Assembly (NCBI GenBank): GCA_903845215.1
Contig: CAIMWI010000035.1
Coordinates: 1 to 64,000 of the forward strand
DNA length: 64,000 nt
Direction: 5' to 3'
Origin: an uncultured Rhodobacterales bacterium
Lineage (GTDB): Bacteria; Pseudomonadota; Alphaproteobacteria; Rhodobacterales; Rhodobacteraceae
Position 1 is the stretch's first letter. Every line of letters starts with the position of its first letter. A program made the translations under genes and the position numbers. The notes beneath the pieces were generated by a model. That model searched no databases, was not told the origin of the DNA, and saw only the letters and a list, made by a program, of their open reading frames with translations. Positions 32,275 through 55,047 of the stretch are shown here, in pieces.

Positions 32275-33363
32275 TTAGCTGCCCTTTTCAAATTTTTCCA
32301 TGAGATAATAGGCTGCAGTTGCCAAAACGGCGGCCCCTAGGGCTGCGAAGGTGATCTTCCAAACGCTGTAAGGGCGTTCCCCTTGCACTTCGCCGGTTTG
32401 GCCGTTGACCAGAAAGCGATAGGTTTTGGAATTGTACTTATAGGCCGCGATCCAGATCGGCAGCAGGATGTGTTTGAAGGTTTCGGCGGAATAGCTGGTT
32501 GCAACAGTATCGACGCGTTGGACATCGCCGCCGATGTCATGACGCACGTCCTGCTCGATCACGCGGGCCATTTTCTGCTTGGCCGTACCATTGCCGTCGG
32601 CCAAGGCCACGGTATAGCCCTCGGCCTGAAAGCCAGCGAGGTAGTCCGGCTTGTAGGGTTGCAGTTGCGACAGATCCCAGGGTTCCAAGCCTTCGCCCAA
32701 ATGGGTGGGCAGGGTGGTAGAGGCGATGGCCAAAACATCGTCAAAGCCGCGGTCAACAGAGCCAGAGGCCGGAGACCACCGGGTCTTTTTCTTATCTTTG
32801 ACGTAGTAATGCACGCCCTTGGCGCCGGTGTATTGGCTTTGAGTGTCGGCATCAAAGGTCCAGTAAGGCACATAGACGCCGTTCATCGCGCGGCCCGTGC
32901 GGGCGAATTCCACCAAGCGGTTGGGGGCGAACCACAGGCTTCCCAGCCAAGCGACCATGGCCTTGTGGGCGGATTTTTCATCCAAGGCGAAGGGGATCAC
33001 CGCTTGTGGCTTGATCTTGCGTTCAGCGCCAGTATCCACAACGATAGGGCCCGCGCAAAAAGGGCATTCGGTGGCATGATTGGCACCGCTGAATTCCACG
33101 CTAGCGCCGCAATTGGGGCATTTGGTGGCGCGGACTTCGGCACTGGCCGAGATGGGCAAGTCGTTAGACAGACCCTTGGCCAAAGGATGTTCTTCAAAAG
33201 CTTTGGTCTTTGCGGGTTTGTCCCACGGACCGGCATTGTCATCCGCCACAATCGTCTGTTCAAAGCCGCAATGTTCGCAATTTAGCACTGTCTGGCCGGG
33301 GGCAAAGCGCAGGTCGGCCCCGCACTGTTGGCAGGGGTAGCGGTGTTCTTCGCTAACGGCCAT
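32275..33363 (-). CDS. Double zinc-ribbon, C-terminally membrane-anchored protein
   Basis: A 362-residue protein. N-terminal zinc ribbons: CQQCGADLRF with NCEHCGFEQ, and CPNCGASVEFSG with CPFCAGP. A long middle domain follows (MNGVYVPYWTFDADTQSQYTG and HILLPIWIAAYKYNSKTYRF). Near the C-terminus is one transmembrane helix (ITFAALGAAVLATAAYYLM). Such proteins are often mis-annotated as replication factor Y homologues; B. subtilis YdjG has a similar plan and works with an SPFH protein. Last gene of a six-gene operon, starting 3 bases after the SPFH gene. Confidence 0.82.
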   Translation of the reverse strand: MAVSEEHRYPCQQCGADLRFAPGQTVLNCEHCGFEQTIVADDNAGPWDKPAKTKAFEEHPLAKGLSNDLPISASAEVRATKCPNCGASVEFSGANHATECPFCAGPIVVDTGAERKIKPQAVIPFALDEKSAHKAMVAWLGSLWFAPNRLVEFARTGRAMNGVYVPYWTFDADTQSQYTGAKGVHYYVKDKKKTRWSPASGSVDRGFDDVLAIASTTLPTHLGEGLEPWDLSQLQPYKPDYLAGFQAEGYTVALADGNGTAKQKMARVIEQDVRHDIGGDVQRVDTVATSYSAETFKHILLPIWIAAYKYNSKTYRFLVNGQTGEVQGERPYSVWKITFAALGAAVLATAAYYLMEKFEKGS

Positions 33364-33366
33364 CGT

Positions 33367-34443
33367 TTACGCCCCCGGCGGCGGGGGAGGCGGCGGGATA
33401 GCCGCGAAAAGGCCTGTGAGTTCGGTTTGATCGGCGGCTTTCCAGCCGTCTTGGCCTGCCGTCCACACTTGCGTCGCGCGCGTCAACCCGCCCGAGGCCA
33501 CCAATGCGGCCAGATCGCCCATGCCGTAAGGCCCTTTAGTCACCCCATTTTCGGCCAGATGCCATTGCTTGACCGGGGGCGGGGGCGGCGGGGCTGCCGC
33601 GGTGGCCGCAGCCTGCGCGCCCATATTCAACCCCATGCCTGCACCCATAGCAGCCCCCATCGTGGCCCCCATGGCCGAGTTGGGGTTGCCCAGGCCTTCG
33701 GCGGCGTTGAACTGGGTGTATTTGCCCAGATCGCCCGCCAGCCCCATCGAGGTGCGCTTGTCGAGCACTTTTTCCACCTCTTCGGGCAAAGAGATGTTTT
33801 CGATGTAAAACTCTGGCAAGGTCAGGCCGTAATTGCCAATCGTTGGCGCAATGGCTGTTCCCACCACCCTAGCCAGATCGGCGGTATTGGCGGCCATATC
33901 CAGTACGGGAATGCCAGATTTGGCCAAAGACTGGCTCATTTCCTGCACAATCACATTGCGGATTTGGGACGAGATTTCGTCGGCGGTGAATTCACCGTCG
34001 GTGCCCACGACCTCTTTCATAAAAAGGCCCGGGTCGGTCACGCGCATCGAATAGGTGCCAAAGGCGCGGATGCGCACGGGCCCGAATTCGGGGTCGCGGC
34101 ACATGATGGGGTTTTGCGTGCCCCATTTGAAATTATTGAACCGCGCGGTGTTGATAAAATACACCTCGCATTTGAAGGGCGACGAAAAGCCGTACTCCCA
34201 GCTTTGCAGGGTTGTCAGGATGGGCAAGTTGTTGGTTTGCAACTCATAAAGGCCGGGGCCGAAGACATCTGCCAATTGGCCTTCATTGATGAAAACTGCG
34301 GCTTGGCCTTCGCGCACCGTTAATTTAGCGCCGTATTTGATCGCATTGTCGCGCCGTTCAAACCGCCAGACCATCGTGTCGCGGGTGTCATCTGTCCAAG
34401 AGATGACGTCGATGAATTCACCCTTCAGGAACCCAAATACCAT
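33367..34443 (-). CDS. SPFH-domain protein with C-terminal GYF domain
   Basis: A 358-residue protein, residues about 20-240 SPFH/band-7 type (LTVREGQAAVFINEGQLADVFGPG, RIRAFGTYSMRVTDPGLF, YGLTLPEFYIENISLPEEV). A glycine/alanine/methionine-rich linker and a Pro run follow, then a GYF_2 domain (WHLAENGVTKGPYGMGDLA, TQVWTAGQDGWKAA) and a Pro-rich end. It resembles B. subtilis YdjI and proteins mis-named virion core protein. SPFH proteins form membrane-bound ring or scaffold assemblies; GYF domains bind proline-rich peptides. It has no transmembrane helix and is probably peripheral. Confidence 0.85.
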   Translation of the reverse strand: MVFGFLKGEFIDVISWTDDTRDTMVWRFERRDNAIKYGAKLTVREGQAAVFINEGQLADVFGPGLYELQTNNLPILTTLQSWEYGFSSPFKCEVYFINTARFNNFKWGTQNPIMCRDPEFGPVRIRAFGTYSMRVTDPGLFMKEVVGTDGEFTADEISSQIRNVIVQEMSQSLAKSGIPVLDMAANTADLARVVGTAIAPTIGNYGLTLPEFYIENISLPEEVEKVLDKRTSMGLAGDLGKYTQFNAAEGLGNPNSAMGATMGAAMGAGMGLNMGAQAAATAAAPPPPPPVKQWHLAENGVTKGPYGMGDLAALVASGGLTRATQVWTAGQDGWKAADQTELTGLFAAIPPPPPPPGA

Positions 34444-34445
34444 GA

Positions 34446-35402
34446 TTACCTCTTCACCCCAGTTTGCGCCGCAGTTTCGCCGCCCAAAAGCGCCGTTGCA
34501 AGTGTTTCGACAATGGGCTGCGCTTGCGCCCGTGTCATGCCGGGCGATAAGGCCGGATCGTAAAGGATTTGCAGCATTAATTCGTCCTGATACGTCAGCA
34601 GGGCAAATTCCTGATCGTCATTAAAAATCGAGGGGCGGGCGGCATTGCTGTCATTGGGTAAGCCCAAGGATTGCGCCAATTCCTCGTGAATGCACGCCAA
34701 GCGCATAAGGTCTGGATGTTCAGACGGGATCACCGCCGCAGCGCGTACATAGCCTGATGTGGCGGAATTCGATTGCGTCAGCACCTGGCAATAAGTGCCT
34801 GCATCCATCTGGGTCACCGATTGCATTTGCCCGGGCGTCAGACCGGGGATTTGTGCGCTTAACTCTGGCCCCAAGGCGGCGCGGTCGTCGACAGAGGCGA
34901 TGTACACCCAGAAGTTGGGCTGTGCATCAGACAGGCTGATCGGGTGGCCTGTCACCTTAGACAAGCGCTTCAGGTAAAGCGCCACGCGAGCGCGGTCAGC
35001 GGATTGCTGTGCTGCAGGAACGGCGCGACCAAAACGCAGCGCCACGCGCACCGGCACTTGCCAGCGCAACAGCAAAATCGGCGTTTCCGTGGAATGGCGC
35101 GTGACTTGGCCACCAGCGTATTCTTCAAAGAGGGCAATGCGCAGAAAATTCTCTGTCAGATGCCGTGGGGTCATGGGCGCGTCAAACGGGTGGGTGTCGG
35201 TTCGCAGCAGACCTTCGGACAACAGCGCAGACTGCACTTTGGCGTAATGCGCGCGGATTGCGGCACTTGCGGGCGTGTCGGCGCCAGTGGGCGAAGGGCC
35301 GGCAGCCGCCGTTTGCGGCGGCGGCGGCGCACAGGCCGACAGCGCCAGCATCAAGGCGCAGGCGGCAAGTGCCAAGCGGGGCAATACGGCAGGGGTGATC
35401 AA
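34446..35402 (-). CDS. DUF2927 lipoprotein
   Basis: A 318-residue lipoprotein with a signal peptide and lipobox ALSAC, lipidated Cys 24, followed by a Pro-rich linker. The DUF2927 core includes LTENFLRIALFEEY, FWVYIASVDDRAALG and the motif ACIHEELAQSLGLPNDS, whose HE pair looks like a protease-type zinc motif remnant (HExxQ). It should face the periplasm. Start overlaps the telA-like stop by ATGA. It gives the operon a periplasmic arm; its job is unknown. Confidence 0.85.
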   Translation of the reverse strand: MITPAVLPRLALAACALMLALSACAPPPPQTAAAGPSPTGADTPASAAIRAHYAKVQSALLSEGLLRTDTHPFDAPMTPRHLTENFLRIALFEEYAGGQVTRHSTETPILLLRWQVPVRVALRFGRAVPAAQQSADRARVALYLKRLSKVTGHPISLSDAQPNFWVYIASVDDRAALGPELSAQIPGLTPGQMQSVTQMDAGTYCQVLTQSNSATSGYVRAAAVIPSEHPDLMRLACIHEELAQSLGLPNDSNAARPSIFNDDQEFALLTYQDELMLQILYDPALSPGMTRAQAQPIVETLATALLGGETAAQTGVKR

Positions 35403-36559
35403 GCTTGCCTCGGCGCGGCGTTGGACTTTGCCGCGGACAGCGCGTCTTTCAGGGCCGCTTCCATCTTGGCCAGTTCATCAAAGGCCTCGGCGCGTTTGGC
35501 CTTACCCGCGTCGGCGATGGCCAAGCTGTCTTGGATCGTGGCGATCAAGATGTCATTGGCAGCTTTGACGGCCGCCATGTCAAACACCCCGCGCTCCATT
35601 TCTGTGCGCACCGATTTATTCGCCTCGCCCAGGCTTTGGGCGTTTTGTGTCAGCAGATCATTCGTCAGATCATTGGCCGCGCGCACCGCCTTGGCCGCAT
35701 CGCGCGCACGTTGGATGGTCAGCGCCTGTGCCAGTTGCGTCTCCCACAATGGCACGGTGTTGATCAGCGTGGCGTTGATCTTGCCCACCAACGACTTGTC
35801 ATTCTCTTGCACCAGCCGGATCGACGGGAGCGCCTGCATCGTCACTTGGCGGGTCAGTTGCAAATCATACACCCGCCGTTCCAGATCATCACGCGCCATG
35901 CGCAGATCGCGCAGGTCTTGCGCCTGTTTGACGGGGTCGGGGGCGGTGGCCAGCGCCCCGTCCAGCGCGGGCAGGTCTGTTGTGTCAAGTGCGTGCAACT
36001 TGGCTTGGCCCGCAGCGATATAAAGACCCAATTCGTCATAGAAGGTCAGCGTTTTGGTATACAGCAGGTCCAGCGATTTGATGTCTTTCAAAAGCACGGT
36101 TTCGTGGGTCAGCAGATCTGCGGTGATCTTGTCGATTTGCAGTTGCACCTGTTCATAGCGGGCGATGAACTGGGCGATGGGGGCTGCAGCGCCCGTCAAA
36201 CGTTCCCACCACGAACGGCGGCGATTGGCGTCCAGCTCTGCCCCCGAAAAGCCGCGGATGGTCGAGACGATCTCTGCCAAAGATTGGCCTGCAGGCCCAA
36301 GGTCTTTGGCTTTCACTCCGGCCAGCATTTCTTGACTGATCAAGCGCAAATCGCTTTGCGCGCTTGTGCCAAAAGCCATGATCGTTCGGGCGTCAGCCAT
36401 GTCTAATTCGCCCAATCGTTGGGTGATGGCCTGTGCCTGTGGCCCAATTGCTGCCTCTAGCGGCACGATGGCTGGCGCGGGGGCGGGCAGCGGGTTGGCT
36501 GCGAGGGCGTCAATTTGGGCCGAAGTGGTCTTGGCCTGATCGCGGACGGTTTTGGGCAT
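35399..36559 (-). CDS. Toxic anion resistance protein, TelA/KlaA family
   Basis: A 386-residue, strongly helical cytoplasmic protein of the TelA family. Signatures are LVGKINATLINTVPLWETQLAQAL and the following long helix (AANDLTNDLLTQNAQSLGEANKSVRTEMERGVFD). Family members are linked to tellurite, nisin and other envelope stress, but the mechanism is not established. Co-occurrence with XpaC is well known for this family. It lies 66 bases after the XpaC-like gene and overlaps the next gene. Confidence 0.88.
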   Translation of the reverse strand: MPKTVRDQAKTTSAQIDALAANPLPAPAPAIVPLEAAIGPQAQAITQRLGELDMADARTIMAFGTSAQSDLRLISQEMLAGVKAKDLGPAGQSLAEIVSTIRGFSGAELDANRRRSWWERLTGAAAPIAQFIARYEQVQLQIDKITADLLTHETVLLKDIKSLDLLYTKTLTFYDELGLYIAAGQAKLHALDTTDLPALDGALATAPDPVKQAQDLRDLRMARDDLERRVYDLQLTRQVTMQALPSIRLVQENDKSLVGKINATLINTVPLWETQLAQALTIQRARDAAKAVRAANDLTNDLLTQNAQSLGEANKSVRTEMERGVFDMAAVKAANDILIATIQDSLAIADAGKAKRAEAFDELAKMEAALKDALSAAKSNAAPRQA

Positions 36560-36625
36560 GATATTCTCACGTCAGTTGACCCAAAGGGCCGGATAAAGGG
36601 CAGATAAGGGCGCGGATGGGCAAAG

Positions 36626-37507
36626 TCAGGGGGTGGGGCGTTCTAATTTCAACCGATCACGCAGCACTTGAATTTCGATATCCAGATCGGTGTGGCTGTT
36701 GGACAAAAGTGCATTGGTGCGCGCCGCGAAGTTCGTTTCAAGGTCAGACAGCAGCGCTTCGTAATCGGCGCGGGCTTTGTCGTTGCGGGTAGTGGCGAAG
36801 ATCTCTGAGAATTTGACCGTCGCATCCCGCGCGCCTGTTAAGTAGATCGACATGTATTTGCGCGCGGCCGCCAGATCGCCGGGATCGTTTTCAACTTGGC
36901 GAAACAGGGCGCGTGCGATGTCGCAAAATCGCGCCACACGGGTTTGCAGTGCCCCATCACCGGCGCGGGCGATGGCGTCAGACATGGATGACAGCAATGC
37001 CTCACCCTCAAGAACGGCGCGGGCCACGCGGTCGGTTTGGAACAGATCTTGATCTGTCATTCCCTTGGATGCCAAGGGATCAAACCCGAAAGCCGCGGAA
37101 TGGAGCGCAACGCCCAAAACCGCAAACCCTGCCAGAACGAACGGCGGTTCAGCCCCCGCAAGCCCGCCCAGCGCCAAACCTAGCCCGGTTAAAGCTGATC
37201 CTATCATCTTGCGCGGCAAAGCCGGACGGCGTGCTATTTTGCGCGCATCAAAAGCGGCCTGCGCCTTGACCCCTTCGCGCGTCAGCCACGCCGCAGCAAC
37301 CAGAAACCCCGCAGCGCCAAGCGCGGTCATCAAACCCGCAGGCGTTCCGGTGAAGGCTTTGATCAGGAAGGGAAATGGCAAGGCAAATGCCAGATGCGCG
37401 CGCAACATGGGCCCAGTGGGGGGATCGGAGATCACAAGATCGGGTGTTTGGTTTGACCCGGCATCGCCCGTCTTGGGGCTAAAACGCCCCACCACCCGCC
37501 GCGCCAT
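36626..37507 (-). CDS. XpaC-like membrane protein
   Basis: A 293-residue protein. Four hydrophobic segments occupy residues about 33-145 (LAFALPFPFLIKAF, AAGFLVAAAWL, ALTGLGLALGGLAG, FVLAGFAVLGVAL). A long helical cytoplasmic C-terminal domain follows (ARAVLEGEALLSSMSDAIA, LAAARKYMSIYLTGARDATV). This arrangement and the telA neighbour match XpaC, named for 5-bromo-4-chloroindolyl phosphate hydrolysis although no phosphatase motif is visible. Its ATG overlaps the stop of the 27-codon upstream gene (TGATG). Confidence 0.82.
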   Translation of the reverse strand: MARRVVGRFSPKTGDAGSNQTPDLVISDPPTGPMLRAHLAFALPFPFLIKAFTGTPAGLMTALGAAGFLVAAAWLTREGVKAQAAFDARKIARRPALPRKMIGSALTGLGLALGGLAGAEPPFVLAGFAVLGVALHSAAFGFDPLASKGMTDQDLFQTDRVARAVLEGEALLSSMSDAIARAGDGALQTRVARFCDIARALFRQVENDPGDLAAARKYMSIYLTGARDATVKFSEIFATTRNDKARADYEALLSDLETNFAARTNALLSNSHTDLDIEIQVLRDRLKLERPTP

Positions 37508-37590
37508 CAGACGCCCGCCCCCAAGGCCACATAAAGCGTCAAAGCCGATAACAGCACAAAAGCTAGGCTTTGCAGCGCTTTGGCAGACAT
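37507..37590 (-). CDS. 27-residue single-span membrane peptide
   Basis: A very short frame, ATG to TGA, encoding MSAKALQSLAFVLLSALTL followed by YVALGAGV. It has one basic residue at the N-terminus and one predicted transmembrane helix of about 20 residues. The stop overlaps the XpaC-like start as TGATG, the coupling used elsewhere in this window, and AAGGG lies 10 bases before the ATG. No family is known to me. It is either a membrane microprotein of the complex or a leader that couples translation. Confidence 0.6.
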   Translation of the reverse strand: MSAKALQSLAFVLLSALTLYVALGAGV

Positions 37591-37647
37591 GGTTTGGCCC
37601 TTTGGAAGGAAACTTAGCTGTTGTTATAGGGGCAGTGCCTTAGGCTG

Positions 37648-37676
37648 GCTATAGCCGGCCCAGTCATTTCAACCAA
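37648..37676 (-). promoter_or_regulatory. Candidate promoter of the six-gene membrane operon
   Basis: On the minus strand TTGGTT and TATAGC are separated by 17 bases, a fair sigma-70-like match, 58 bases upstream of the small peptide's ATG. It lies in the only gap of this transcription unit longer than 66 bases. Based on spacing only. Confidence 0.35.
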
Positions 37677-37703
37677 AAAGCCAAGATTTTAGGCCTGCCG
37701 CCC

Positions 37704-38672
37704 TTAAGGGTTGCGGCGGGGGCGGGATGAGGGGCCAGATTTGGGGCCATCCTTGCCATCTGGGCGCGGCTTTGCGACGGGGGCTGGCCCCTCGTTGCGG
37801 CGGCGTGGGGCGGGGCCTTTTGCACTGTCGCGGGTGGGGCCATGGCTGACGCTGCGGGCCGGGGCCTTGGGCGGGGCTTTTTTGGCCACAACCTCTTCGG
37901 CCATTGGGTCCAAGCCCAACTGGTCGCGCAGGATACGCGGTTTGATCTCTTCCACGTCGCCCGGTTGCAGATCGCCCAAGCGGAAGGGGCCATAGCTGAT
38001 GCGGATCAGGCGGTTCACATACAGATCCAGCGCGTTCAGAGCGCGGCGGATCTCGCGGTTTTTGCCTTCGCGCAGGCCGATGGTCAGCCACGCGTTGGCC
38101 CCTTGGATGCGGTCTAGCATCACATTCATCGGCTGAAAGCGCTCGCCGTCGACCGTGATGCCTTTGCGCAAGGGTTCAAGATCGACATCGGTCGGATTGC
38201 CGTTGATACGCACGCGGTACTTGCGCAGCCAGCCGGTTGAGGGCAGTTCTAACCGGCGCTTTAGCTCGCCGTCATTGGTAAGAAGCAGCAACCCTTCCGA
38301 GTTCAAATCCAGCCGCCCCACCGACATGACACGCGGCATATCTGGCGGCAGGGTTTCAAACACCGTCTGGCGGCCCTTTTCGTCGGATTCCGATGTCACC
38401 AGCCCTTCAGGCTTGTAATACAGCCACAACCGCGCCGGTTCGGCAGCCGCCACAGGCTTGCCGCCCACGGTGATCTTGTCGCGGTCGGTGACGTTCAGCG
38501 CGGGCGAGGTGATGACCTTGCCATTCACCGCCACTTCACCAATTTCAATCAACCGCTCTGCCTCGCGCCGCGAGGCGATGCCGGCCCGTGAGAGGACTTT
38601 GGCAATACGCTCGCCCGCAGGGGTCGCTTTTTCGGCGGCCACGGGTGCGGCGGGGGTTGATTTCGGGGGCAT
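37704..38672 (-). CDS. rluB: Ribosomal large subunit pseudouridine synthase (RluB/RsuA family)
   Basis: A 322-residue enzyme that makes pseudouridine in 23S rRNA. An S4 RNA-binding domain (RIAKVLSRAGIASRREAERLI) precedes the RsuA-type catalytic domain with GRLDLNSEGLLLLTNDGEL, whose aspartate is the nucleophile. LRKYRVRINGNPTD and GLREGKNREIRRAL are the other family motifs. The C-terminal 70 residues are a disordered Lys/Arg/Pro tail, common in alphaproteobacteria. RluB is preferred over RluE/F, but paralogues cannot be separated with certainty. Divergent from tadA. Confidence 0.87.
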   Translation of the reverse strand: MPPKSTPAAPVAAEKATPAGERIAKVLSRAGIASRREAERLIEIGEVAVNGKVITSPALNVTDRDKITVGGKPVAAAEPARLWLYYKPEGLVTSESDEKGRQTVFETLPPDMPRVMSVGRLDLNSEGLLLLTNDGELKRRLELPSTGWLRKYRVRINGNPTDVDLEPLRKGITVDGERFQPMNVMLDRIQGANAWLTIGLREGKNREIRRALNALDLYVNRLIRISYGPFRLGDLQPGDVEEIKPRILRDQLGLDPMAEEVVAKKAPPKAPARSVSHGPTRDSAKGPAPRRRNEGPAPVAKPRPDGKDGPKSGPSSRPRRNP

Positions 38673-38745
38673 TCGGGGGACCTATCACGATAGAAAAAGC
38701 GTGGCGGCGTGTTGCCGACACAATCGACAGGATATTTGACCCAGC

Positions 38746-39204
38746 ATGAAAGAGCAACGCGCCTTCCTGTCTTTCATGGAACAGGCCCTTGAAGAGGCCA
38801 AAGCCGCCGCTTTGCGCGGCGAGGTGCCGGTGGGGGCGGTGTTGGTTCATGCGGGTGCTGTGGTGGCGCGCGCCGGCAACCGCACCCGCGAATTGGCCGA
38901 CCCCACGGCCCATGCCGAGGTGCTGGCCATTCGCGCAGCCTGTGCAGCTTTGGGATCGGAACGCCTGACGGGGCATGACCTGTATGTCACGCTGGAACCC
39001 TGCCCGATGTGTGCTGCGGCCGTGTCTGCCGCGCGGATCGGGCGGCTTTATTACGGCGCGTCAGACCCGAAGTCGGGCGGTGTGGCACACGGCGCGCGGG
39101 TGTTTTTGCACGCCCAATGCCACCATGTGCCCGAGGTTTATGATGGTATCGCGGCGGACGATGCCGAAATACTAATGAAAGACTTCTTCGCCGCCCGCCG
39201 CTGA
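38746..39204 (+). CDS. tadA: tRNA-specific adenosine deaminase
   Basis: Converts A34 to inosine in tRNA-Arg(ACG). The 152-residue protein has the zinc and proton-shuttle motif TAHAEVLAI and the zinc cysteines TLEPCPMCAAA. GEVPVGAVLV and RLYYGASDPKSGG are also typical. A second in-frame Met at 38776 is a possible alternative start. The gene ends 5 bases before the convergent hydrolase. Confidence 0.93.
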   Translation: MKEQRAFLSFMEQALEEAKAAALRGEVPVGAVLVHAGAVVARAGNRTRELADPTAHAEVLAIRAACAALGSERLTGHDLYVTLEPCPMCAAAVSAARIGRLYYGASDPKSGGVAHGARVFLHAQCHHVPEVYDGIAADDAEILMKDFFAARR

Positions 39205-45535: not shown

Positions 45536-46270
45536 TCAGCGACGATCGCCCATGAACTGCAGCAGGAAGGTGAACATATTGATAAAGTCCAGATACAGAC
45601 GCAAAGCGCCCATGATCGCCGACTTGGCCATCCACTCTTCATTGCCAGCCCGCGCATTGGCGACATATTCGCCCTTGATCGCCTGCGTGTCATAGACCGT
45701 CAGACCCGCAAAGATCAGCACGCCGACCACCGAGATGGCAAATTGCAGCGCAGACGAGGCCAAAAAGATATTCGCGATCATGGCGACCATAATGCCCACC
45801 AGACCCATCATCAAGAACGACCCCATTCCCGACAGGTTCTTCTTGGTCGTATAGCCATACAGGCTCAGCCCCGCAAACGCAGCGGCAGTCGCCAAGAAGG
45901 TCGTAAAGATCGACGCGCCGGTATAGATGGCGAAGATGAAGGACAGCGATAGACCCATCGCTGCCGCGTAGACATAAAAGAACAGTTGGGCCGCGCCAAC
46001 CGACAAGCGGGGCAAGGCCGCGCTAAAGGCCATGACCATCACCAAGGGCAGGAACGTGATGATCCAGCCGAGGATGTTCAAATGCCCGTTGGCGGGATTG
46101 ATGAATGTCATCAGGAGCGCAGGGCTCGTGCCCACCGCCCAACTGACACCTGCTGTCACCAACATGCCAACCGACATGGTTGTGTAGACGCTGTTCATAT
46201 GCGCGCGCAGGCCAGCGTCGATAGCTAGGCCAGCGGTTGCGTCATAGGGTCTTGCCTGAAATTGTGCCAT
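45536..46270 (-). CDS. Bax inhibitor-1/YccA family membrane protein
   Basis: A 244-residue protein with about seven transmembrane helices. FIFAIYTGASIFTTFLATAA, LTVYDTQAIKGEYVANA and ALRLYLDFINMFTFLLQFMG are typical of the BI-1/YbhL/YccA family; the aspartates in the last helices are linked to pH-sensitive calcium leak in homologues. Start MAQFQARPYD is chosen because GGAGG lies upstream at proper spacing, whereas it would be inside the frame for the ATG 12 bases earlier. Confidence 0.9.
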   Translation of the reverse strand: MAQFQARPYDATAGLAIDAGLRAHMNSVYTTMSVGMLVTAGVSWAVGTSPALLMTFINPANGHLNILGWIITFLPLVMVMAFSAALPRLSVGAAQLFFYVYAAAMGLSLSFIFAIYTGASIFTTFLATAAAFAGLSLYGYTTKKNLSGMGSFLMMGLVGIMVAMIANIFLASSALQFAISVVGVLIFAGLTVYDTQAIKGEYVANARAGNEEWMAKSAIMGALRLYLDFINMFTFLLQFMGDRR

Positions 46271-46904
46271 CAAAGCCTCCATTCGTGTGGCGGGCCGGGC
46301 GAATGCCGACCTCTCGTGGTCAATATCGGCACTGTTGCGACCAAGTTCAAGGTTTTCTCACCAAATTTGCCCAAGTCCGCGAAGAGACAGCTGTTGCAGC
46401 CCTTAGAGATGGTCGATCTTGGTCATGGTGCTGGTCGCGTGCTCCCCCAACGCTGACAGTTTTGCGCGCCTCTTGGCAGAATACATCGACAGGATAGAAG
46501 GCCTTAAAAATGTATCAAGAAGACATAACGAACGGATGTGGCACCCAATAACATCCCTGATCACTATAACACAGAGCTGTCCTAGGCTGGTCACCAAAGA
46601 TTTGCTTTTGCCAAAAGGTCGATCAAACCTGCGCATCGGTGTTAAACACGATGGAAGGTCCGAAAAGGTAGCAAACTTTTGTAAATAAATAATTTTTCAA
46701 TGATGTTTCGATGGCCATGATTTCCCCAAATCCTGATCCAATGTTTCGCAATCAATAAATGGTTTACTTGGTGGATCATTTTTCTTGGCGATCTGTAAAA
46801 AATCTTTTGCATTTTAAAACGACCGCCCTATCTGGCTATCAAGAAAAACGCCGAAACGCTTTTTGCATTTTCGCAAGGCGCGCGGTGCACTCTGGGAGAG
46901 AGCG
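46271..46904. promoter_or_regulatory. AT-rich 630-bp region upstream of the XRE regulator gene
   Basis: No gene I can support. From about 46480 the DNA is far more AT-rich than the rest of the window, most strongly at 46670-46860. Two copies of TTTTGCATTTT lie at 46805-46815 and 46861-46871; the second overlaps TTGC-ATTTTC-GCAA (46863-46876), a dyad 29 bases before the regulator ATG. These are candidate operators for autoregulation. The size suggests a promoter with several inputs, or a degenerate transferred segment. Confidence 0.5.
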
Positions 46905-47255
46905 ATGAAACACCCGGTTGATGTCCATGTTGGTAAACAGATCCGGCATCAGCGTTGGATGGTGGGCATGACCCAGCAGCAACTGGCCGAAAAGGTTGGG
47001 ATCAAGTTTCAGCAAGTGCAAAAGTACGAAACGGGCATGAACCGCGTATCTGCCTCGCGCTTGTGGGACATTGCAGAAACCTTGGGCGTCAGCATCGGCT
47101 TTTTCTTTGAAGGCGCGAATGGCGAAAAGGCGGCGCCGACCGACCTGATGGCCGACAAAGAAGCGGTGGAATTGGTGCGGTCTTACTTTGCCATTCCCCA
47201 AGAACAGCGCCGCCGCCTATTCGAACTGGCCAAGGTTCTGTCAGAGGCGGCTTGA
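46905..47255 (+). CDS. XRE-family transcriptional regulator (PraR-like)
   Basis: A 116-residue DNA-binding protein. The HTH_XRE domain covers residues about 10-65 (QIRHQRWMVGMTQQQLAEKV, GIKFQQVQKYETGMNRVSA). A helical C-terminal part contains the VRSYFAIPQEQRRRLFELAK segment shared with alphaproteobacterial PraR/PhrR-type regulators. PraR in rhizobia controls attachment, biofilm and quorum-sensing genes; that role here is inference. The start follows GGGAGAG. An operator-like dyad lies directly upstream. Confidence 0.85.
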   Translation: MKHPVDVHVGKQIRHQRWMVGMTQQQLAEKVGIKFQQVQKYETGMNRVSASRLWDIAETLGVSIGFFFEGANGEKAAPTDLMADKEAVELVRSYFAIPQEQRRRLFELAKVLSEAA

Positions 47256-47303
47256 CCCAAAGCCAGCCTGACTGTAGCGCCAAGCGATCAAAAGGGGGAC
47301 GCC

Positions 47304-48104
47304 ATGACGCAGATCAGTCAAGAACTCGCGGCAGAGTTGATAGAGGTGGCCGACGCCTTGGCGGATGCCGCCCGCGTGGCGACGTTACAGCATTTTCGGG
47401 CCGCTGGACTTTTCGCCACTAACAAAGAAGCGGACAGGTTCGACCCTGTGACAGTGGCCGACCACCTGTCGGAACAGATGATGCGCGAAATTTTGGCCCT
47501 GCGCCGCCCGCAAGATGGCATATTGGGAGAAGAGTTTGGCACAGCCTTGGGCACGTCCGGCCTAACTTGGGTGTTGGATCCGATTGACGGCACGCGCAGT
47601 TTTCTGGCCGGCACCCCGACATGGGGCGTTTTGATCGCCGTGTCGGATGCCAACGGGCCGATCTACGGCCTGATCGATCAGCCCTATATCGGCGAGCGGT
47701 TTTCCGGCGGCCTTGGCCGTGCCGATCTGCGCGGCCCGATGGGCTTGCGGGCCTTGAAAACCCGCCCCCCCCGCCCGCTGTCAGAGGCGATCTTGTTCAC
47801 CACCTTTCCCGAAGTGGGCACGTTTGAGGATGGCGCTGCCTTTAACCGCGTCAAGGCGCAGGCGCGCATGACCCGCTATGGCACCGATTGCTACGCCTAT
47901 GGCCTGATCGCCGCAGGTCAGATTGACCTTGTGATCGAAGCGGGCCTGATGGCCTATGACGTGCAAGGCCCCATCGCCGTGATCGAGGCCGCAGGCGGTA
48001 TCGTCACCGATTGGCAGGGCAACCCCTGCCCGATGGGGGGCCGCGTTCTGGCCGCCGCCAACCGCGCCATTCATGCCGAGGCGTTGGCTTTGCTGAACGC
48101 CTGA
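47304..48104 (+). CDS. hisN: Inositol-monophosphatase-family phosphatase, probable histidinol-phosphatase
   Basis: A 266-residue Mg-dependent phosphatase. Metal-binding motifs: GEEFG, WVLDPIDGTRSFLAGTPTWG and YDVQGPIAVIEAAGG. The replacement of the usual W-D near the last motif by YDVQG, and the length, fit the HisN histidinol-phosphatase group rather than SuhB or CysQ. It would do the dephosphorylation step of histidine synthesis. Follows the regulator by 48 bases, with GGGGGA before the ATG. Confidence 0.85.
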   Translation: MTQISQELAAELIEVADALADAARVATLQHFRAAGLFATNKEADRFDPVTVADHLSEQMMREILALRRPQDGILGEEFGTALGTSGLTWVLDPIDGTRSFLAGTPTWGVLIAVSDANGPIYGLIDQPYIGERFSGGLGRADLRGPMGLRALKTRPPRPLSEAILFTTFPEVGTFEDGAAFNRVKAQARMTRYGTDCYAYGLIAAGQIDLVIEAGLMAYDVQGPIAVIEAAGGIVTDWQGNPCPMGGRVLAAANRAIHAEALALLNA

Positions 48105-48185
48105 TCCGGCCCTTGTCACATGGCGCGAGTCCTTTCCCCTTCTGTCGCGCCGTGGACCCAGCACCGAAGGGGGTGAAAGGGTCCT

Positions 48186-49520
48186 ATGTCTGAAATCTTG
48201 ATCCAGAATGCCGACACCGTCCTGACGATGGATGCAACGCGGCGCGAATTGCACGGCGCAGATGTTTTGCTGCGCGGTGGCGTTGTGGCTGAGGTGGGGC
48301 AGGGGCTGTCCACCACGGGCCGTGTGGTGCAGGCCAAGGGCTGCGTGGTGACACCGGGTTTGGTGAACACCCACCATCACCTTTACCAAACCCTTACCCG
48401 TGCCGTGCCCGGTGGGCAGGATGCGCTGCTGTTTGGCTGGCTGAAAACCCTTTACCCCATCTGGGCGCGCTTTGGGCCGGAAGAGATGTTCACCTCGACC
48501 CAAGTGGGCTTGGCAGAGCTGGCATTGTCGGGCTGCACGCTCACATCGGATCACCTGTACCTGTTCCCCAACGGGTCGCGGTTAGATGATACCATCGCCG
48601 CCGCCGCCGAAGTGGGCTTGCGCTTTCACCCCACGCGCGGGGCGATGAGTATTGGCGAAAGTGCTGGTGGCCTGCCGCCTGACAGTTTGGTGGAAAACGA
48701 AAATGCCATTCTGGAAGATATGATCAGGGTGGTTGATGCCCACCACAACCCCGCCGCAGGGTCGATGCTGCGGGTCGGCCTTGCTCCCTGTTCGCCATTT
48801 TCCGTCACCCGCGATCTGATGCGCAATGCGGCGCTTTTGGCGCGCGACAAGGGCGTGATGCTGCACACCCATTTGGCCGAAAATGACGAGGATATCGCCT
48901 ATTCCTTGGCGAAATTCGGCTGCCGTCCGGGGCAATATGCCCAAGATCTGGGCTGGACGGGCGATGACGTCTGGCACGCCCACTGTGTCAAGCTGGATGC
49001 CACAGAGATTGACCTGTTCGCCCGCACCCGCACCGGTGTGGCGCATTGCCCCTGTTCCAATTGCAGGCTTGGCTCGGGCATTGCCCCCGTCAGGGCGATG
49101 CGCGATGCGCGGGTGAAGGTGGGGCTAGGGGTTGACGGATCGGCCAGCAATGACGCGGGCAATCTGATGGCCGAGGCGCGCCAAACCATGCTGTTGCAAC
49201 GCGTGGCCCTTGGGGCCGATGCGATGAGCGCGCGCGAGGCGCTGGAGATTGCCACCCTTGGCGGCGCGCAAGTGCTGGGCCGCCCCGACTGCGGCGCGCT
49301 AGAGGTGGGCAAACGCGCCGATCTGGCGATTTGGGATGTGTCTGGCGTGGAGAGTGCCGGCTCGTGGGATCCTGCCGCCCTGTTGCTCGCAGGCCCCACC
49401 CGCGTGCGCAACTTGTTCGTCGAAGGCCGTCAGATCGTGGGCGACGGCCAGATGCTGACCATCGACCTGCCCCGCGTGGTGGAACGCCAAAACCATCTGG
49501 CCCGCCGATTGATGGCGTGA
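48186..49520 (+). CDS. 8-oxoguanine deaminase-type amidohydrolase
   Basis: A 444-residue zinc amidohydrolase of the TrzA/AtzB-like group. VTPGLVNTHHHLYQTLTRAV has the first metal ligands, HTHLAEN and HAHCVKL the next, and VGLGVDGSASNDAGN the catalytic aspartate. The block HCPCSNCRLGSGIAPVRAM is characteristic of the enzymes shown to deaminate 8-oxoguanine to urate. It may also act on related purines or pterins. A guanine deaminase lies just downstream on the opposite strand. Confidence 0.85.
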   Translation: MSEILIQNADTVLTMDATRRELHGADVLLRGGVVAEVGQGLSTTGRVVQAKGCVVTPGLVNTHHHLYQTLTRAVPGGQDALLFGWLKTLYPIWARFGPEEMFTSTQVGLAELALSGCTLTSDHLYLFPNGSRLDDTIAAAAEVGLRFHPTRGAMSIGESAGGLPPDSLVENENAILEDMIRVVDAHHNPAAGSMLRVGLAPCSPFSVTRDLMRNAALLARDKGVMLHTHLAENDEDIAYSLAKFGCRPGQYAQDLGWTGDDVWHAHCVKLDATEIDLFARTRTGVAHCPCSNCRLGSGIAPVRAMRDARVKVGLGVDGSASNDAGNLMAEARQTMLLQRVALGADAMSAREALEIATLGGAQVLGRPDCGALEVGKRADLAIWDVSGVESAGSWDPAALLLAGPTRVRNLFVEGRQIVGDGQMLTIDLPRVVERQNHLARRLMA

Positions 49521-49532
49521 TAGGCCCCGCCC

Positions 49533-49856
49533 ATGAGCCATAATTTCGACGCCCAACGCCGCGAGACTTTTAACACCTTTCGGGATATGCCCAAGGGCAT
49601 GAAAAAGCTGCCCGAACGCGCCGAGGTGGATTTTCTGTTCTACCCCGAAGAGCATGACGCCAACTACGGTGCCGTGATGAAGGCGCTGACGGCCAAGGGC
49701 TACCGCGTCAGCCGCGATGACGATCTGGTCGTGGCCAAGGTCGGGCCAATTCCTGTGACACCGGAAGCCATCTGGACGCATGAGCGTGTCGCCACCGAAG
49801 TGGCGCTGGCCTATGACTTTTACCCCGACGGCTGGGATCTGGGGCTAGAGGAGTAA
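49533..49856 (+). CDS. RraB-domain protein (ribonuclease E regulator-like)
   Basis: A 107-residue acidic protein: VDFLFYPEEHDANYGAVMKA, LTAKGYRVSRDDDLVVAKVG, and the C-terminal ALAYDFYPDGWDLGLEE match the RraB (RNase E inhibitor B) fold family, where an acidic protein binds RNase E in E. coli. Function in alphaproteobacteria is not proven. It starts 12 bases after the deaminase and its 3' end overlaps the guanine deaminase tail by 12 bases. Confidence 0.75.
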   Translation: MSHNFDAQRRETFNTFRDMPKGMKKLPERAEVDFLFYPEEHDANYGAVMKALTAKGYRVSRDDDLVVAKVGPIPVTPEAIWTHERVATEVALAYDFYPDGWDLGLEE

Positions 49857-51116
49857 TCTCCCCGCGATCCACACCGCATCAATGGCGCGGTCATCGCCCA
49901 GCATGATCGTAGGGAAAACCGCCTGCCAAATGCCTTCGGCCCGCCGTGTGGCTTGTTCGATGGCAGGCGTGGATGCAAGGTTAACCACCACCAAATCCGC
50001 CTCTGCCCCTACTGCGATGTTGCCAATCTGATGCTCGGCCCGCAAAGCGCGGGCTGATCCTTGGGTGGCCAGCCACCATAGCTGCGATGGATGCAGCGCT
50101 TGGCCACGCAACTGGGCCACCTCGTAAGACGCAGCCATGGTGCGCAGCATGGAAAATGACGACCCGCCGCCGGTATCTGTCGCCAGCCCAACCCGCAGGC
50201 TTTGGGCAAGCCCCATGTCAAACAGCCCCGATCCGATAAAAGTATTCGAGGTCGGGCAATGCACCACACTCGCCCCCGCCTGGGCCAGCCGCGCTTTTTC
50301 GTGGGGGGTCAGGTGGATCGCATGGCCGTACACCGCCCCTTCGCGCAGAAGGCCATGGGCTTCGTAGGTGTCCAGATAGTCGCGCGATTGGGGGAACAGG
50401 TCTTTGACCCAAGCGATTTCGTCGGTCTGCTCGGAGAGGTGGGTCTGCATCAGGCAATCGGGGTTCTCGGCCCACAGCGCCCCCATGGCGGCCAGTTGTT
50501 CTGGGGTTGAGGTCGGCGAAAAGCGCGGGGTGATGACGTAAGACAGACGCTCGCGGCCATGCCATTTGGCAAGCAGGGCTTTGCTGTCATCATAAGCGCT
50601 TTGGGCCGTATCGCGCAGACCCTCGGGCGCGTTGCGATCCATGCAGGTTTTGCCGGCAAAGGCGCGCAGACCGCGCGCCTGCGCCTGTTCAAAGAACGCA
50701 TCGACCGAGGCCGGATGGATCGTGGCATAAGAACACATCGATGTTGTGCCATGTGCTAAGGCCAGATCGAAATAGCGCGCGGCAACCTCTGCCGCATAGG
50801 CGGGGTCGGCAAAGCGCATCTCTTCGGGGAAGGTGTATTGGTTCAGCCAGTCAATCAACCGCTTGCCCCATGACGCGATGATGGCCGTTTGCGGATAATG
50901 CACATGCGCATCCACAAAGCCTGCCGAGATCAGGTGTTGGCCGTAGTCTGTTACCCGCGCTTGGGGGAAGGTGGCGCGCAAACTGGCCGCGGAACCCACA
51001 GCGGCAATGCGGCCTTGGTCAACCACGACCGCCTCGTTCACCCGCGCCGCTTTTGGCCCAAGCCCAAAGGGGTCGCCGTTAAACGACAAAACCTGCCCCA
51101 GCAATAGATCAGCCAT
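49845..51116 (-). CDS. guaD: Guanine deaminase
   Basis: Converts guanine to xanthine and ammonia. The 423-residue zinc amidohydrolase has SAGFVDAHVHYPQTAIIASW (metal ligands and the family-specific YPQ), CMDRNAPEGLRD, QTHLSEQTDEIAWV, GHAIHLTPHE, HCPTSNTFIGSGLFDM and the catalytic aspartate in LATDTGGGSSFSML. Family assignment is secure. Divergent from the 6S RNA/5-FCL unit. Confidence 0.95.
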   Translation of the reverse strand: MADLLLGQVLSFNGDPFGLGPKAARVNEAVVVDQGRIAAVGSAASLRATFPQARVTDYGQHLISAGFVDAHVHYPQTAIIASWGKRLIDWLNQYTFPEEMRFADPAYAAEVAARYFDLALAHGTTSMCSYATIHPASVDAFFEQAQARGLRAFAGKTCMDRNAPEGLRDTAQSAYDDSKALLAKWHGRERLSYVITPRFSPTSTPEQLAAMGALWAENPDCLMQTHLSEQTDEIAWVKDLFPQSRDYLDTYEAHGLLREGAVYGHAIHLTPHEKARLAQAGASVVHCPTSNTFIGSGLFDMGLAQSLRVGLATDTGGGSSFSMLRTMAASYEVAQLRGQALHPSQLWWLATQGSARALRAEHQIGNIAVGAEADLVVVNLASTPAIEQATRRAEGIWQAVFPTIMLGDDRAIDAVWIAGRLLL

Positions 51117-51139
51117 AGATCACCTTTTCTTTTGCGCCA

Positions 51140-51290
51140 AAGTTTAAGGCCTTTCCGCGCAGCGGTAAATTTCCCCAATGCGGTGCTTTGGCAGAAACAG
51201 CTTAGCCCCAAGCCGTTGGAATGCCAAAGGCCGTCGGGCATAAAGGGGCGGACAGGGTGGGGTATTTGGTGTATCTGGCCCCAAAACAGG
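51140..51290 (+). ncRNA. ssrS: Probable 6S RNA
   Basis: The gap between guaD and the 5-formyl-THF cyclo-ligase gene can fold into the long, interrupted rod typical of 6S RNA, which mimics an open promoter and binds RNA polymerase. Closing stem: GTTT-aa-GGCC (51142-51151) with GGCC-cca-AAAC (51277-51287). Apical stem: CCCCaaTGC (51173-51181) with GCAtaaaGGGG (51238-51248), CTTTGGCA with TGCCAAAG, and a GCTT/AAGC tip. A large bubble separates the stems. The location upstream of this gene is the known ssrS synteny. Confidence 0.6.
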
Positions 51291-51294
51291 GGGA

Positions 51295-51846
51295 ATGACC
51301 ATGAGCGATCCCAAAGCCGCCGCCCGCACAGCAGCCTTTGCGCGGCGCAAAGCCGCCTTTGCGGCAGGGCAGGGCCAAGCGGCAGAGCTTTTGGCCGATG
51401 TCTTAAGCGCGCATGCTGGCAAAGTGTTGGCAGGCTATATGCCGATGCGCACCGAGATTGACCCTCTGCCCGCCATGGCCGCCCATCAGGGTTTGGTCGG
51501 CGTGCCGGTGATCATGGCCGCCGCAACCCCGCTGAAATTTCGCGAATGGGCGCCGGGTGTGGCAATGATAGCGGGCGATTTTGGCGCGCTGATCCCCGCC
51601 GAAGGGGCGTGGGTTACCCCGCAGGTGGTGATCGTGCCGCTGTTGGCCTTTGATGCGCGCGGATATCGCCTGGGCTATGGCGGGGGCTTTTACGACCGCA
51701 CGCTGCAAGGCCTGCGCGCCAAGGGCCCTGTCTTGGCAATAGGATTTGCCTTTGCCGCCCAAGAGGTTGACGCAGTGCCCACGGATGCGTTCGACCAAAA
51801 GCTGGATATGGTCGTCACGGAAAAGGGCCTGCACCACTTTGCCTGA
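51295..51846 (+). CDS. 5-formyltetrahydrofolate cyclo-ligase
   Basis: Converts 5-formyl-THF to 5,10-methenyl-THF using ATP. At 183 residues it has normal length; GYMPMRTEIDPLP, EWAPG and the substrate loop YRLGYGGGFYDRTL are conserved. ATG 51295 or 51301 could start; GGGGGAA lies before them. It probably shares a transcript with the 6S RNA-like element. Its stop lies 12 bases from a convergent small gene. Confidence 0.93.
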   Translation: MTMSDPKAAARTAAFARRKAAFAAGQGQAAELLADVLSAHAGKVLAGYMPMRTEIDPLPAMAAHQGLVGVPVIMAAATPLKFREWAPGVAMIAGDFGALIPAEGAWVTPQVVIVPLLAFDARGYRLGYGGGFYDRTLQGLRAKGPVLAIGFAFAAQEVDAVPTDAFDQKLDMVVTEKGLHHFA

Positions 51847-51858
51847 CGCCCCGTCCGA

Positions 51859-52062
51859 TCAGGGGTGTTGGGTCGTGAACCCCGATATCCGCGCCCCTGC
51901 CTGTTCGACAATCGACAGGGATAATCCGTTCAAAAACCCGCCGATCGAGGTGACAAAGACCACCCCGACCCCCAGCGCGATTGCGGCCAAGACAACCCAA
52001 TCAACTTGGGTGGCGCTGGTTTGGGCTTTGCTGACGGCTTTGGTTAGAAATGTTGTTTTCAT
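51859..52062 (-). CDS. Small pilin-like membrane protein
   Basis: A 67-residue protein with start MKTTFLTKAVSKAQ, then VDWVVLAAIALGVGVVFVTS, a single hydrophobic segment, and a polar C-terminus. The VDWVVLxAxxxGxG pattern resembles Flp/TadE-like short pilin-related proteins common in Rhodobacteraceae, but the usual prepilin cleavage site is not clear. No tad genes are near. The upstream 21 in-frame codons are rejected. Confidence 0.6.
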   Translation of the reverse strand: MKTTFLTKAVSKAQTSATQVDWVVLAAIALGVGVVFVTSIGGFLNGLSLSIVEQAGARISGFTTQHP

Positions 52063-52207
52063 CACACCAATCCTTTTAAGCCAAAAACGGGTCTGTTGGC
52101 CCGAAATTCGGGCCCATTTCGGCAAGACCCGTGAAAGAAATAAGCCAAACGCTCCGACTGTTTTGGCCGTGACACCTGATTCGTAAGGATGGTTTGTGGC
52201 AAGATTA

Positions 52208-52234
52208 AGGCCAAGCCCTTCTGGGGCTTGGCCT
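52208..52234. terminator. Strong hairpin downstream of scoAB
   Basis: Perfect 11-bp stem AGGCCAAGCCC / GGGCTTGGCCT with a five-base loop, 59 bases beyond the scoB stop. The flanking T runs are weak on the minus strand (TTAAT) and distant on the plus strand (GTTTTTC). Most likely the scoAB 3' end. Confidence 0.55.
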
Positions 52235-52292
52235 AAGATCGTTTTTCTTTCGAATCAGGCTGAAAAAAGCCTTTGCCCTCAACCCTTTGCCT

Positions 52293-52937
52293 TTAGCCTA
52301 CGATCCGCGCCTCGGTTGCGGCGCGCAAATCGGCTTCGCTGACGCCGTCAGCCAATTCGACAATCTTCAACCCGCCCGCCACCACATCCAGCACGCCCAG
52401 ATTGGTGATGATGCGGTTGACGACGGCCTTGCCGGTCAAAGGCAAGGTGCAATTGCGCAACACCTTGGACTCGCCGTGTTTAGAGGTGTGGTCCATCACC
52501 ACCACCACACGGCCCACACCCGCCACCAGATCCATCGCCCCGCCCATGCCCTTGACCAGTTTGCCCGGGATCATCCAGTTGGCCAGATCGCCGGTCTCGC
52601 TGACCTCCATCGCGCCCAAGATCGCCATGGCGATCTTGCCGCCGCGGATCATGGCGAAAGATTGGGCCGAATCGAAATAGGCGGTTTGCGGCAGTTCGGT
52701 GATGGTTTGCTTGCCTGCGTTGATCAGATCGGGGTCTTCGTCGCCCTCAATGGGAAAGGGCCCCATGCCCAGCATGCCGTTTTCTGATTGCAGGGTCACG
52801 TTTACCCCCGCAGGGATATAGTTTGACACAAGTGTCGGAATGCCAATGCCAAGATTGACATAAGTGCCATCGCGCAGTTCCAAAGCAGCGCGGGCGGCGA
52901 TTTGGTTGCGATCCCAGCCTTTTATCGCGTCAGCCAT
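52293..52937 (-). CDS. scoB: 3-oxoacid CoA-transferase subunit B
   Basis: The beta subunit of a class I CoA transferase moving CoA from succinyl-CoA to acetoacetate. The 214-residue protein has [13 protein letters not shown], the catalytic-glutamate motif [11 protein letters not shown], and [16 protein letters not shown]. Translationally coupled to scoA through TGATG. The pair would support ketone body or polyhydroxybutyrate-derived acetoacetate use; 3-oxoadipate as substrate (PcaIJ) is less likely because pca genes are absent. Confidence 0.93.
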
Positions 52938-53641
52938 CAGACAAATTCCTTCTTGCGCGTGGTGCGGTTTTCGATGCGCTTTTCGTGCGGGCCTTTGATC
53001 AGGCGGTGCACATAAATGCCCGGCAGGTGGATCAAGTCGGGGTCAAGGCTGCCCAATGGGACAATCTCTTCAACCTCAGCCACGCAGATTTTGCCAGCGG
53101 TCGCCGCAGGCGGGTTAAAGTTGCGCGCGGTTTTGCGAAAGACCAAGTTGCCCGACGGGTCAGCCTTCCACGCTTTCACAATCGACAGATCCGCCACGAT
53201 GCCGCGTTCCAGAATATAGGTCTGGCCGTTGAAATCCTTATGCTCTTTGCCCTCGGCAATCACCGTGCCCACGCCGGTTTTGGTGTAAAAGCCCGGGATC
53301 CCCGCACCGCCTGCACGCAAACGCTCGGCCAAGGTGCCTTGGGGGGTGAATTCCAGTTCCAACTCGCCGCTGAGATACTGGCGCATGAATTCGGCGTTTT
53401 CGCCGACATAGGACGAGATCATCTTCTTGACCTGACGCGTGGCCAACAGCACGCCCAATCCAAAGCCATCCACCCCCGCATTGTTGGACGCGATGGTCAG
53501 GTCTTTGGTGCCGACATCCTTGATCGCTGCAATCAGCAGCTCAGGAATGCCGCACAGTCCAAACCCGCCGCTGGCGATGGTCATGCCGTCAAACAACAGC
53601 CCCTCCAGCGCTGCCGACGCACTGGCATATTCCTTATTCAT
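52937..53641 (-). CDS. scoA: 3-oxoacid CoA-transferase subunit A
   Basis: The alpha subunit, 234 residues. [18 protein letters not shown] is the family signature near the N-terminus, followed by [38 protein letters not shown] and [14 protein letters not shown] chose [12 protein letters not shown] as start; the ORF extends 19 codons upstream without similarity. First gene of the scoAB unit. Confidence 0.93.
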
Positions 53642-53790
53642 CGCATCCCTCCCGTACATTCTGGGTCGCACCAAACCGCGCCGCGCCAGCTTAGTCAATG
53701 CCGCGTTGCGGCGAATTGCGGGTCGAACTGGCGAAAGCTGTGCGCCAAGCCTTTACCCCACCCGCGCGATTGAGATAGTGTAGCCGCGCC

Positions 53791-53876: not shown

Positions 53877-54031
53877 AGAAATTCAAAGAATTATTGTGAT
53901 GAATTCTGCGCGATGTGGCGCGTTTTCGTCGCGTTTGGGGGGGCATCGCTGACACGTTTCGTCTGCACCGATCATCGTAGCCAAACCTGATTTTGAAGTC
54001 TATCTTTCCGCAAAACGGTCAGGAGTTGCTT

Positions 54032-55030: not shown

Positions 55031-55047
55031 CAGGTCCCGTGTGCCTG

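Follow-up and report, generated by a model that had tools for sequence, protein, structure and literature searches.

An alphaproteobacterial operon joining an SPFH-zinc ribbon pair to XpaC-TelA, with a DUF2927 lipoprotein and a small membrane peptide

The 64,000-nucleotide stretch of DNA analysed here (the window), which comprises nearly the whole of the 64,313-base contig CAIMWI010000035.1 of an uncultured Rhodobacterales bacterium (GCA_903845215.1), contains an operon of six genes encoding a 27-residue membrane peptide, an XpaC-like membrane protein, TelA, a DUF2927 lipoprotein, an SPFH protein with a C-terminal GYF domain, and a double zinc ribbon protein (Table 1). This operon joins two modules that are also found apart, SPFH-zinc ribbon and XpaC-TelA, and adds the DUF2927 gene and the overlapping peptide gene; its gene order is conserved beyond chance. 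The operon probably contributes to membrane upkeep in these cells, with a role in envelope stress suggested by what is known of its homologues. At even confidence, we favour the reading that its products form a membrane-surveillance or repair scaffold, a PspA-independent relative of the YdjI/YdjG/(YdjH)/PspA complex, in which TelA sits on a platform of SPFH and DUF2927 provides the periplasmic binding part, because of the roles of YdjI, YdjG, YdjH and TelA in other bacteria.

Conservation of gene order and joining of the two modules

A search with the SPFH protein gave matches in 37 of 61 genomes, 35 of which are among the 37 genomes of its own family, and regions were compared from 34 family relatives and two other genomes with a match. 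The five-gene order XpaC-TelA-DUF2927-SPFH-zinc ribbon was present in 28/34 of these family relatives, including G007, whose outer genes are cut by contig ends. In addition, an alignment scan of named genomes with DUF2927 (the best 80 of 588 relatives, mostly with Rhodobacteraceae or Rhodobacterales titles) identified this order on the same strand at 67 of 80 loci, which partly derive from the same assemblies as the 34 relatives, and the two counts are not independent. The comparison across Rhodobacteraceae proposed with the original prediction thus found the order kept. Estimated median gaps along the five genes at the named loci are 37, 17, 32 and 6 bases, and estimated gaps do not exceed 100 bases in 68/76, 79/80, 58/77 and 61/71 gene pairs, respectively. 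Gaps of at least 250 bases in some relatives contain no recurrent inserted partner, as judged by eye rather than by a library scan.

Among the 13 named loci that lack the complete order, eight run into a contig end and five differ (L098, L111, L135, L144 and L151). The remaining six family relatives comprise three truncated by contig ends (G009, G014, G036) and three that differ (G019, G030, G033). Several of these breaks lie at module borders: in L135 and L144, both Gemmobacter, SPFH and zinc ribbon are inverted together as one unit, L111 has neither of the two beside DUF2927, and XpaC-TelA lies 36 kb away in G033. Furthermore, SPFH-zinc ribbon stands away from TelA in G019, and the place of DUF2927 between TelA and SPFH is occupied in G030 (L058) by an open reading frame (ORF) of another kind of about 400 residues.

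Both modules were also sought beyond the family. Among 289 alphaproteobacterial genomes (the class sample), strong Band_7_1 matches (E < 1e-50) were found in 13 and strong TelA matches (E < 1e-20) in 23, with both in 12 genomes (Fisher p 3e-14, uncorrected for kinship, four of the 12 belonging to the own family), nine of which have the two as neighbours. Five of these nine (G167, G093, G153, G258 and G100), which represent four other families, encode XpaC-TelA-SPFH-zinc ribbon with no DUF2927 in between, G184 and G267 contain the SPFH-zinc ribbon pair with no TelA beside it, and other genomes of this sample carry TelA, with or without XpaC, distant from SPFH. In a second sample of 299 genomes of the phylum, TelA accompanies Band_7_1 in each of the 14 family genomes listed with the latter, within 3 kb by the listed coordinates, and one family genome, G535, has neither. 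Outside the class, the two modules are unlinked in the three sampled genomes that contain both, and their fusion is therefore an alphaproteobacterial trait in these samples. Together with the plasmid loci described below, both samples bear out the original suggestion that two separately known modules are joined here. A search of a literature collection returned no paper combining XpaC, TelA and SPFH, nor one combining Rhodobacter, TelA and SPFH.

Two genomes of the family that belong to separate genera, G029 (98% complete) and G535 (100% complete), have no match for SPFH, TelA, XpaC or the zinc ribbon protein and retain DUF2927 downstream of RluB. This joint absence argues that XpaC, TelA, SPFH and the zinc ribbon protein act together, and that DUF2927 would also have a role of its own. 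A third genome lacking an SPFH match, G011 (79% complete), keeps XpaC, TelA and DUF2927 matches on one contig, and the lack of SPFH may thus be an assembly gap. It is conceivable, though rather unlikely, that the operon consists of two independent modules sharing a transcript or regulator, both of which answer envelope damage without forming a single complex, and that DUF2927 is a bystander. Such independence would agree with the separate existence of XpaC-TelA and SPFH-zinc ribbon in other lineages, with the inversion of the pair relative to TelA in L135 and L144 and with the solitary survival of DUF2927, but it does not sit easily with the joint absence in G029 and G535, with the presence of TelA in 12 of the 13 class-sample genomes that have a strong Band_7_1 match or with the short estimated gaps in most gene pairs.

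The SPFH-zinc ribbon pair and the C-terminus of SPFH

The Band_7_1 SPFH gene is directly followed by the gene for a double zinc ribbon membrane protein, which is the arrangement of the YdjI/YdjG type. A tblastn search of plasmids with the zinc ribbon protein yielded 12 records, and in all four records inspected (Vibrio coralliilyticus, Comamonas odontotermitis, Enterococcus gallinarum and Tsukamurella tyrosinosolvens) the homologue follows an SPFH gene, with a TPM-domain gene coming third in E. gallinarum; no TelA or XpaC profile match was found within these four stretches. According to a comparative study, YdjG combines a pair of zinc ribbons with an NTF2-like domain related to YpeB and a membrane segment (PMC11237479). 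Based on these plasmid neighbours and on the published YdjG architecture, the pair most likely belongs to the YdjI/YdjG kind, in line with the link to these proteins drawn originally. In Bacillus subtilis, formation of YdjI and PspA foci is reported to require YdjG and YdjH, PspA depends on all three Ydj proteins for its membrane foci, and cells lacking YdjI have a less fluid membrane (PMC8581546). Neither PMC11237479 nor PMC9239133 mentions TelA or XpaC in its main text.

The operon shares with B. subtilis pspA-ydjGHI a Band_7_1 SPFH protein whose neighbour carries two zinc ribbons as well as a membrane helix, and, via Enterococcus, the association of homologues of both with a TPM gene. Contrastingly, PspA and TPM are both encoded there and neither in the operon here, the SPFH C-terminus carries a GYF domain and a proline tail here instead of a zinc ribbon, and the pair is joined here to XpaC-TelA, DUF2927 and the peptide.

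GYF domains bind proline-rich peptides. Within the 80 named loci, 73 of 74 complete SPFH proteins contain PPP among their last 16 residues. Outside the family, a proline-run end was identified in 14/14 SPFH proteins with GYF, originating from Alphaproteobacteria, Vibrio, an actinobacterium and other genomes of the phylum, versus 0/14 without GYF (1/15 before removal of the N-terminal piece of L204, a gene split into two ORFs, this piece ending near a proline run); L066 (G051), in which the SPFH-profile match lies with the GYF match and no Band_7_1 is listed, was excluded from the GYF count. Ten of the 14 proline-ended proteins contain PPPLP. The original proposal that GYF could bind the proline-rich tail of its own protein thereby gains comparative support, and the simplest reading would be that each GYF domain engages the proline tail of the same SPFH subunit or of one next to it; that GYF and tail were inherited together as one unit is a weaker alternative. 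TelA and the zinc ribbon protein were considered as GYF ligands and rejected, as PPPP occurs in 0/80 TelA and 0/73 zinc ribbon proteins; it occurs in 2/76 XpaC proteins, and PPG was found in none of these TelA, seven zinc ribbon and seven XpaC proteins.

According to Pfam, eight SPFH relatives outside the family end in GYF_2, SHOCT, HTH_17 or zinc ribbons. A class of SHOCT or SHOCT-like SPFH proteins (L065, L076, L209 and L213-L218) stands beside weakly matching zinc ribbon proteins, and the neighbour of one SHOCT-type SPFH protein (L213:445-1959) carries DUF4178.

TelA, the DUF2927 lipoprotein and the small peptide

The adjacent matches to PF10112 and PF05816 on one strand correspond to the XpaC-TelA (YaaN) pair of Bacillota. 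In Listeria, lmo1966-lmo1967, comprising XpaC-like and TelA-like genes, is considered a putative operon with a link to envelope antibiotics, and disruption of TelA is reported to increase susceptibility to nisin 4-fold and to tellurite 2-fold (PMC12791056). The pairing is the same here, whereas the fusion to SPFH-zinc ribbon and the lipoprotein distinguishes the operon from the Bacillota pair. TelA has further been described as a membrane-located component of the Ter system that acts in exclusion and forms sub-membrane structures (PMC7824862). Both descriptions could also be accommodated by a Ter-type system for the exclusion of xenobiotics, tellurite or phages, with TelA as membrane effector and SPFH as its scaffold, which we consider improbable in view of the housekeeping nature of the tested flanks: the operon is preceded by a gene for an RluB-type pseudouridine synthase and followed by purC (Pfam and NCBIfam), and RluB and TadA stand beside it in many relatives, so that it does not resemble a mobile island. 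Near-universal SPFH in the family sample (35/37) likewise argues against such a system. The predicted TelA model, which is of low confidence (pLDDT 67.5), gave no ESCRT-III-type match among the matches listed, which contained only other long-helical proteins.

No match to PspA (PF04012) was identified in the own genome (G000, 93% complete), in agreement with the absence of PspA noted at first. For the accompanying suggestion that TelA and XpaC take the place of PspA, the family gives no consistent pattern, PF04012 matches above cut-off being present in 9/37 family genomes and absent from the other 28, the own genome included. Replacement of PspA by TelA is thus a hypothesis rather than a pattern.

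The DUF2927 gene is a separable part of the operon; this and its predicted fold, described below, go beyond the original prediction. DUF2927 matches were found in 40/289 genomes of the class sample. As predicted from the sequence originally, its product has the features of a lipoprotein, with an invariant lipobox cysteine and a hydrophobic segment at residues 6-24. In the predicted structure it shows the overall catalytic-domain fold of the matrixins (metzincins), and the E, E, Q, G, N and D of an EExxQxxGxxND motif at the expected place of the zinc site are invariant in 73/73 aligned proteins. The active HExxHxxGxxH zinc site of matrixins (peptidase family M10, including MMPs and karilysin) is absent: both histidine positions of HExxH are changed in all 73, and the zinc-ligand histidines are E, Q and N/D here. 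HExxH is present in 2/22 other DUF2927 ORFs. Profile-profile alignment with hhalign against nine bacterial M10 stretches gave a probability of <1%, no better than the TelA negative control, and a search of solved structures by sequence returned no meaningful match for DUF2927, TelA, the zinc ribbon protein or SPFH. The modelled structure, together with the spacing of the motif and the HExxH present in two family members, thus predicts for DUF2927 a matrixin-like fold with an altered metal site. The searched literature collection contained no paper on DUF2927, and neither DUF2927 nor matrixin appears in the main text of a pseudopeptidase review (PMC11266112).

An HflKC-like quality control complex, in which an SPFH cage would work with a membrane-bound and still active DUF2927 metallohydrolase of unusual metal site, would make sense of the predicted matrixin fold and of the invariant motif residues, which indicate a site under selection. 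It is nevertheless very improbable given the loss of both HExxH histidines in every aligned protein and given that lipoprotein and SPFH would sit on opposite sides of the membrane.

Several genomes contain additional DUF2927 genes. Three family genomes, G190 (L172), G061 (L173) and G288 (L174), encode a second DUF2927 protein with EELAQALGPLNDL elsewhere in the genome, in longer open frames of 452, 511 and 463 residues, respectively. The own genome contains a weak second match (L191), for which no ORF was obtained. Furthermore, seven DUF2927 matches within about 20 kb of the alphaproteobacterial genome G196 (C1:46652-66787), some of them parts of one ORF, represent a local expansion, of which L187 covers positions 46000-57200.

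The 27-residue peptide is very likely coding, as judged from codon substitution patterns. In 74/74 loci, taken without any choice by similarity, there is a single open frame of 27 codons that ends at the start of XpaC. The ratio of non-synonymous to synonymous differences (pN/pS) over all 2775 pairs was 0.75 in frame versus 1.04 and 1.23 in the shifted frames; it was 0.48 versus 1.19 and 1.66 in the 557 pairs with at least 60% nucleotide identity, and 0.35 versus 1.33 and 2.28 in the 102 pairs with at least 70%. An earlier test on 68/74 loci gave 0.47 versus 1.15 and 1.65, but favoured this result, since its peptides were selected for resembling a consensus and its pairs according to protein identity. 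The TGATG overlap with XpaC is present in 42/68 loci. In L139, L140, L147, L150, L163 and L164, a divergent short hydrophobic peptide precedes XpaC, with ends like FGTSAGLIG or FGVTTGWL.

ORF calls and the reading of the junctions confirmed the predicted tight packing of six minus-strand genes, including the 1-base TGATG overlap between the peptide and XpaC genes, the 66-base gap before TelA and the gaps of 2 bases (DUF2927/SPFH) and 3 bases (SPFH/zinc ribbon). The predicted ATGA overlap is instead a 4-base TTGA at the TelA/DUF2927 junction, with a TTG start of DUF2927, and is poorly kept, an in-frame NTGA with an ATG, GTG or TTG start being present at 9/80 junctions. Pfam supported the families named originally for XpaC, TelA, DUF2927, SPFH and GYF, with all matches of the zinc ribbon protein below threshold, and NCBIfam (E 0.1) assigned no family to XpaC, TelA, DUF2927, SPFH or the peptide. 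A Kyte-Doolittle window scan agreed with the proposed membrane placement, locating hydrophobic segments in the peptide (residues 9-27), XpaC (57-75 and 116-134) and the zinc ribbon protein (337-355) and none in TelA or SPFH. A promoter scan of positions 37450-38800 found no promoter-like site, and terminator-like sites were not more numerous than in shuffled sequence.

Table 1. Genes and sequence features of the operon, with positions in the window.
Feature	Position	Strand	Basis
27-residue single-pass membrane peptide	37507-37590	-	ORF; hydrophobic segment 9-27; overlaps XpaC start (TGATG)
XpaC-like membrane protein, 293 aa	36626-37507	-	PF10112, E 9.7e-20 (Pfam); two hydrophobic segments
TelA, 386 aa	35399-36559	-	PF05816, E 1.3e-95 (Pfam); predicted long-helical; without hydrophobic segment
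DUF2927 lipoprotein, 318 aa, predicted matrixin (metzincin) fold	34446-35402	-	PF11150, E 3e-59 (Pfam)
DUF2927 lipobox Cys24 codon (LSAC)	35331-35333	-	invariant in 33/33
EExxQxxGxxND, DUF2927 codons 240-251, at expected place of metzincin zinc site	34650-34685	-	73/73 aligned
SPFH (Band_7_1) protein with C-terminal GYF_2, YdjI-like, 358 aa	33367-34443	-	PF13421, E 3.9e-101 (Pfam)
GYF_2 domain, residues 294-339 of SPFH protein	33427-33564	-	PF14237, E 2.8e-14 (Pfam)
C-terminal proline tail IPPPPPPPGA of SPFH protein, candidate GYF ligand	33370-33399	-	PPP in 73/74 relatives
Double zinc ribbon protein, YdjG-like, 362 aa, C-terminal hydrophobic helix	32275-33363	-	ORF; homologue context

A possible membrane-surveillance scaffold

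Anatomy, conservation, joint absence, peptide coding and the link between GYF and tail were computed; we infer each step of the following mechanism. In the favoured scaffold reading, the zinc ribbon protein and XpaC, together with the peptide, would serve as membrane anchors, and SPFH subunits would oligomerise on the inner face of the membrane, cross-linked by GYF domains that grip the proline tails of their neighbours. The long-helical TelA would be recruited to this SPFH platform, in the position held by PspA in Bacillus, and would form or stabilise a sub-membrane layer at damaged sites. In the periplasm, the matrixin-like cleft of DUF2927, with its changed metal site, might bind peptide, peptidoglycan or metal instead of cutting, and DUF2927 would report on or tether the envelope. 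In its most complete form, as a PspA-independent alphaproteobacterial repair machine in which a GYF/proline-tail-linked SPFH lattice on zinc ribbon and XpaC anchors deploys TelA inside while an ex-matrixin reads the periplasm, this model is unlikely to be correct.

Several observations weigh against the scaffold reading. Both modules are present and unlinked in G048, G184, G302 and G526 within Alphaproteobacteria and stand on different contigs in G332, G387 and G500 outside the class, and thus neither module needs the other in general. DUF2927 persists without the other genes in G029 and G535, gives way to another gene in G030 and has no room in G509 of the own family, where the distance between TelA and SPFH is too short for it, indicating that it is not needed everywhere. 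Breaks away from the module borders occur in L098, which lacks only XpaC beside the other genes, and in L151, which lacks only the zinc ribbon protein. Furthermore, none of the six operon products, the only ones compared, matches a TPM partner of the YdjH type (Pfam, E 0.1), PspA accompanies the operon in the same genome in 8/34 SPFH-carrying relatives, and the TelA model is of low confidence.

The operon ties SPFH proteins and TelA together and defines a partner set for each. The scaffold reading predicts that GYF binds the proline tail, that the localisation of TelA depends on SPFH and that the DUF2927 fold is that of a protease put to a new use. This reading would give DUF2927, a Pfam family of unknown function, a structural identity, and would connect the phage-shock response, through its SPFH arm, with the antimicrobial and tellurite tolerance associated with TelA.

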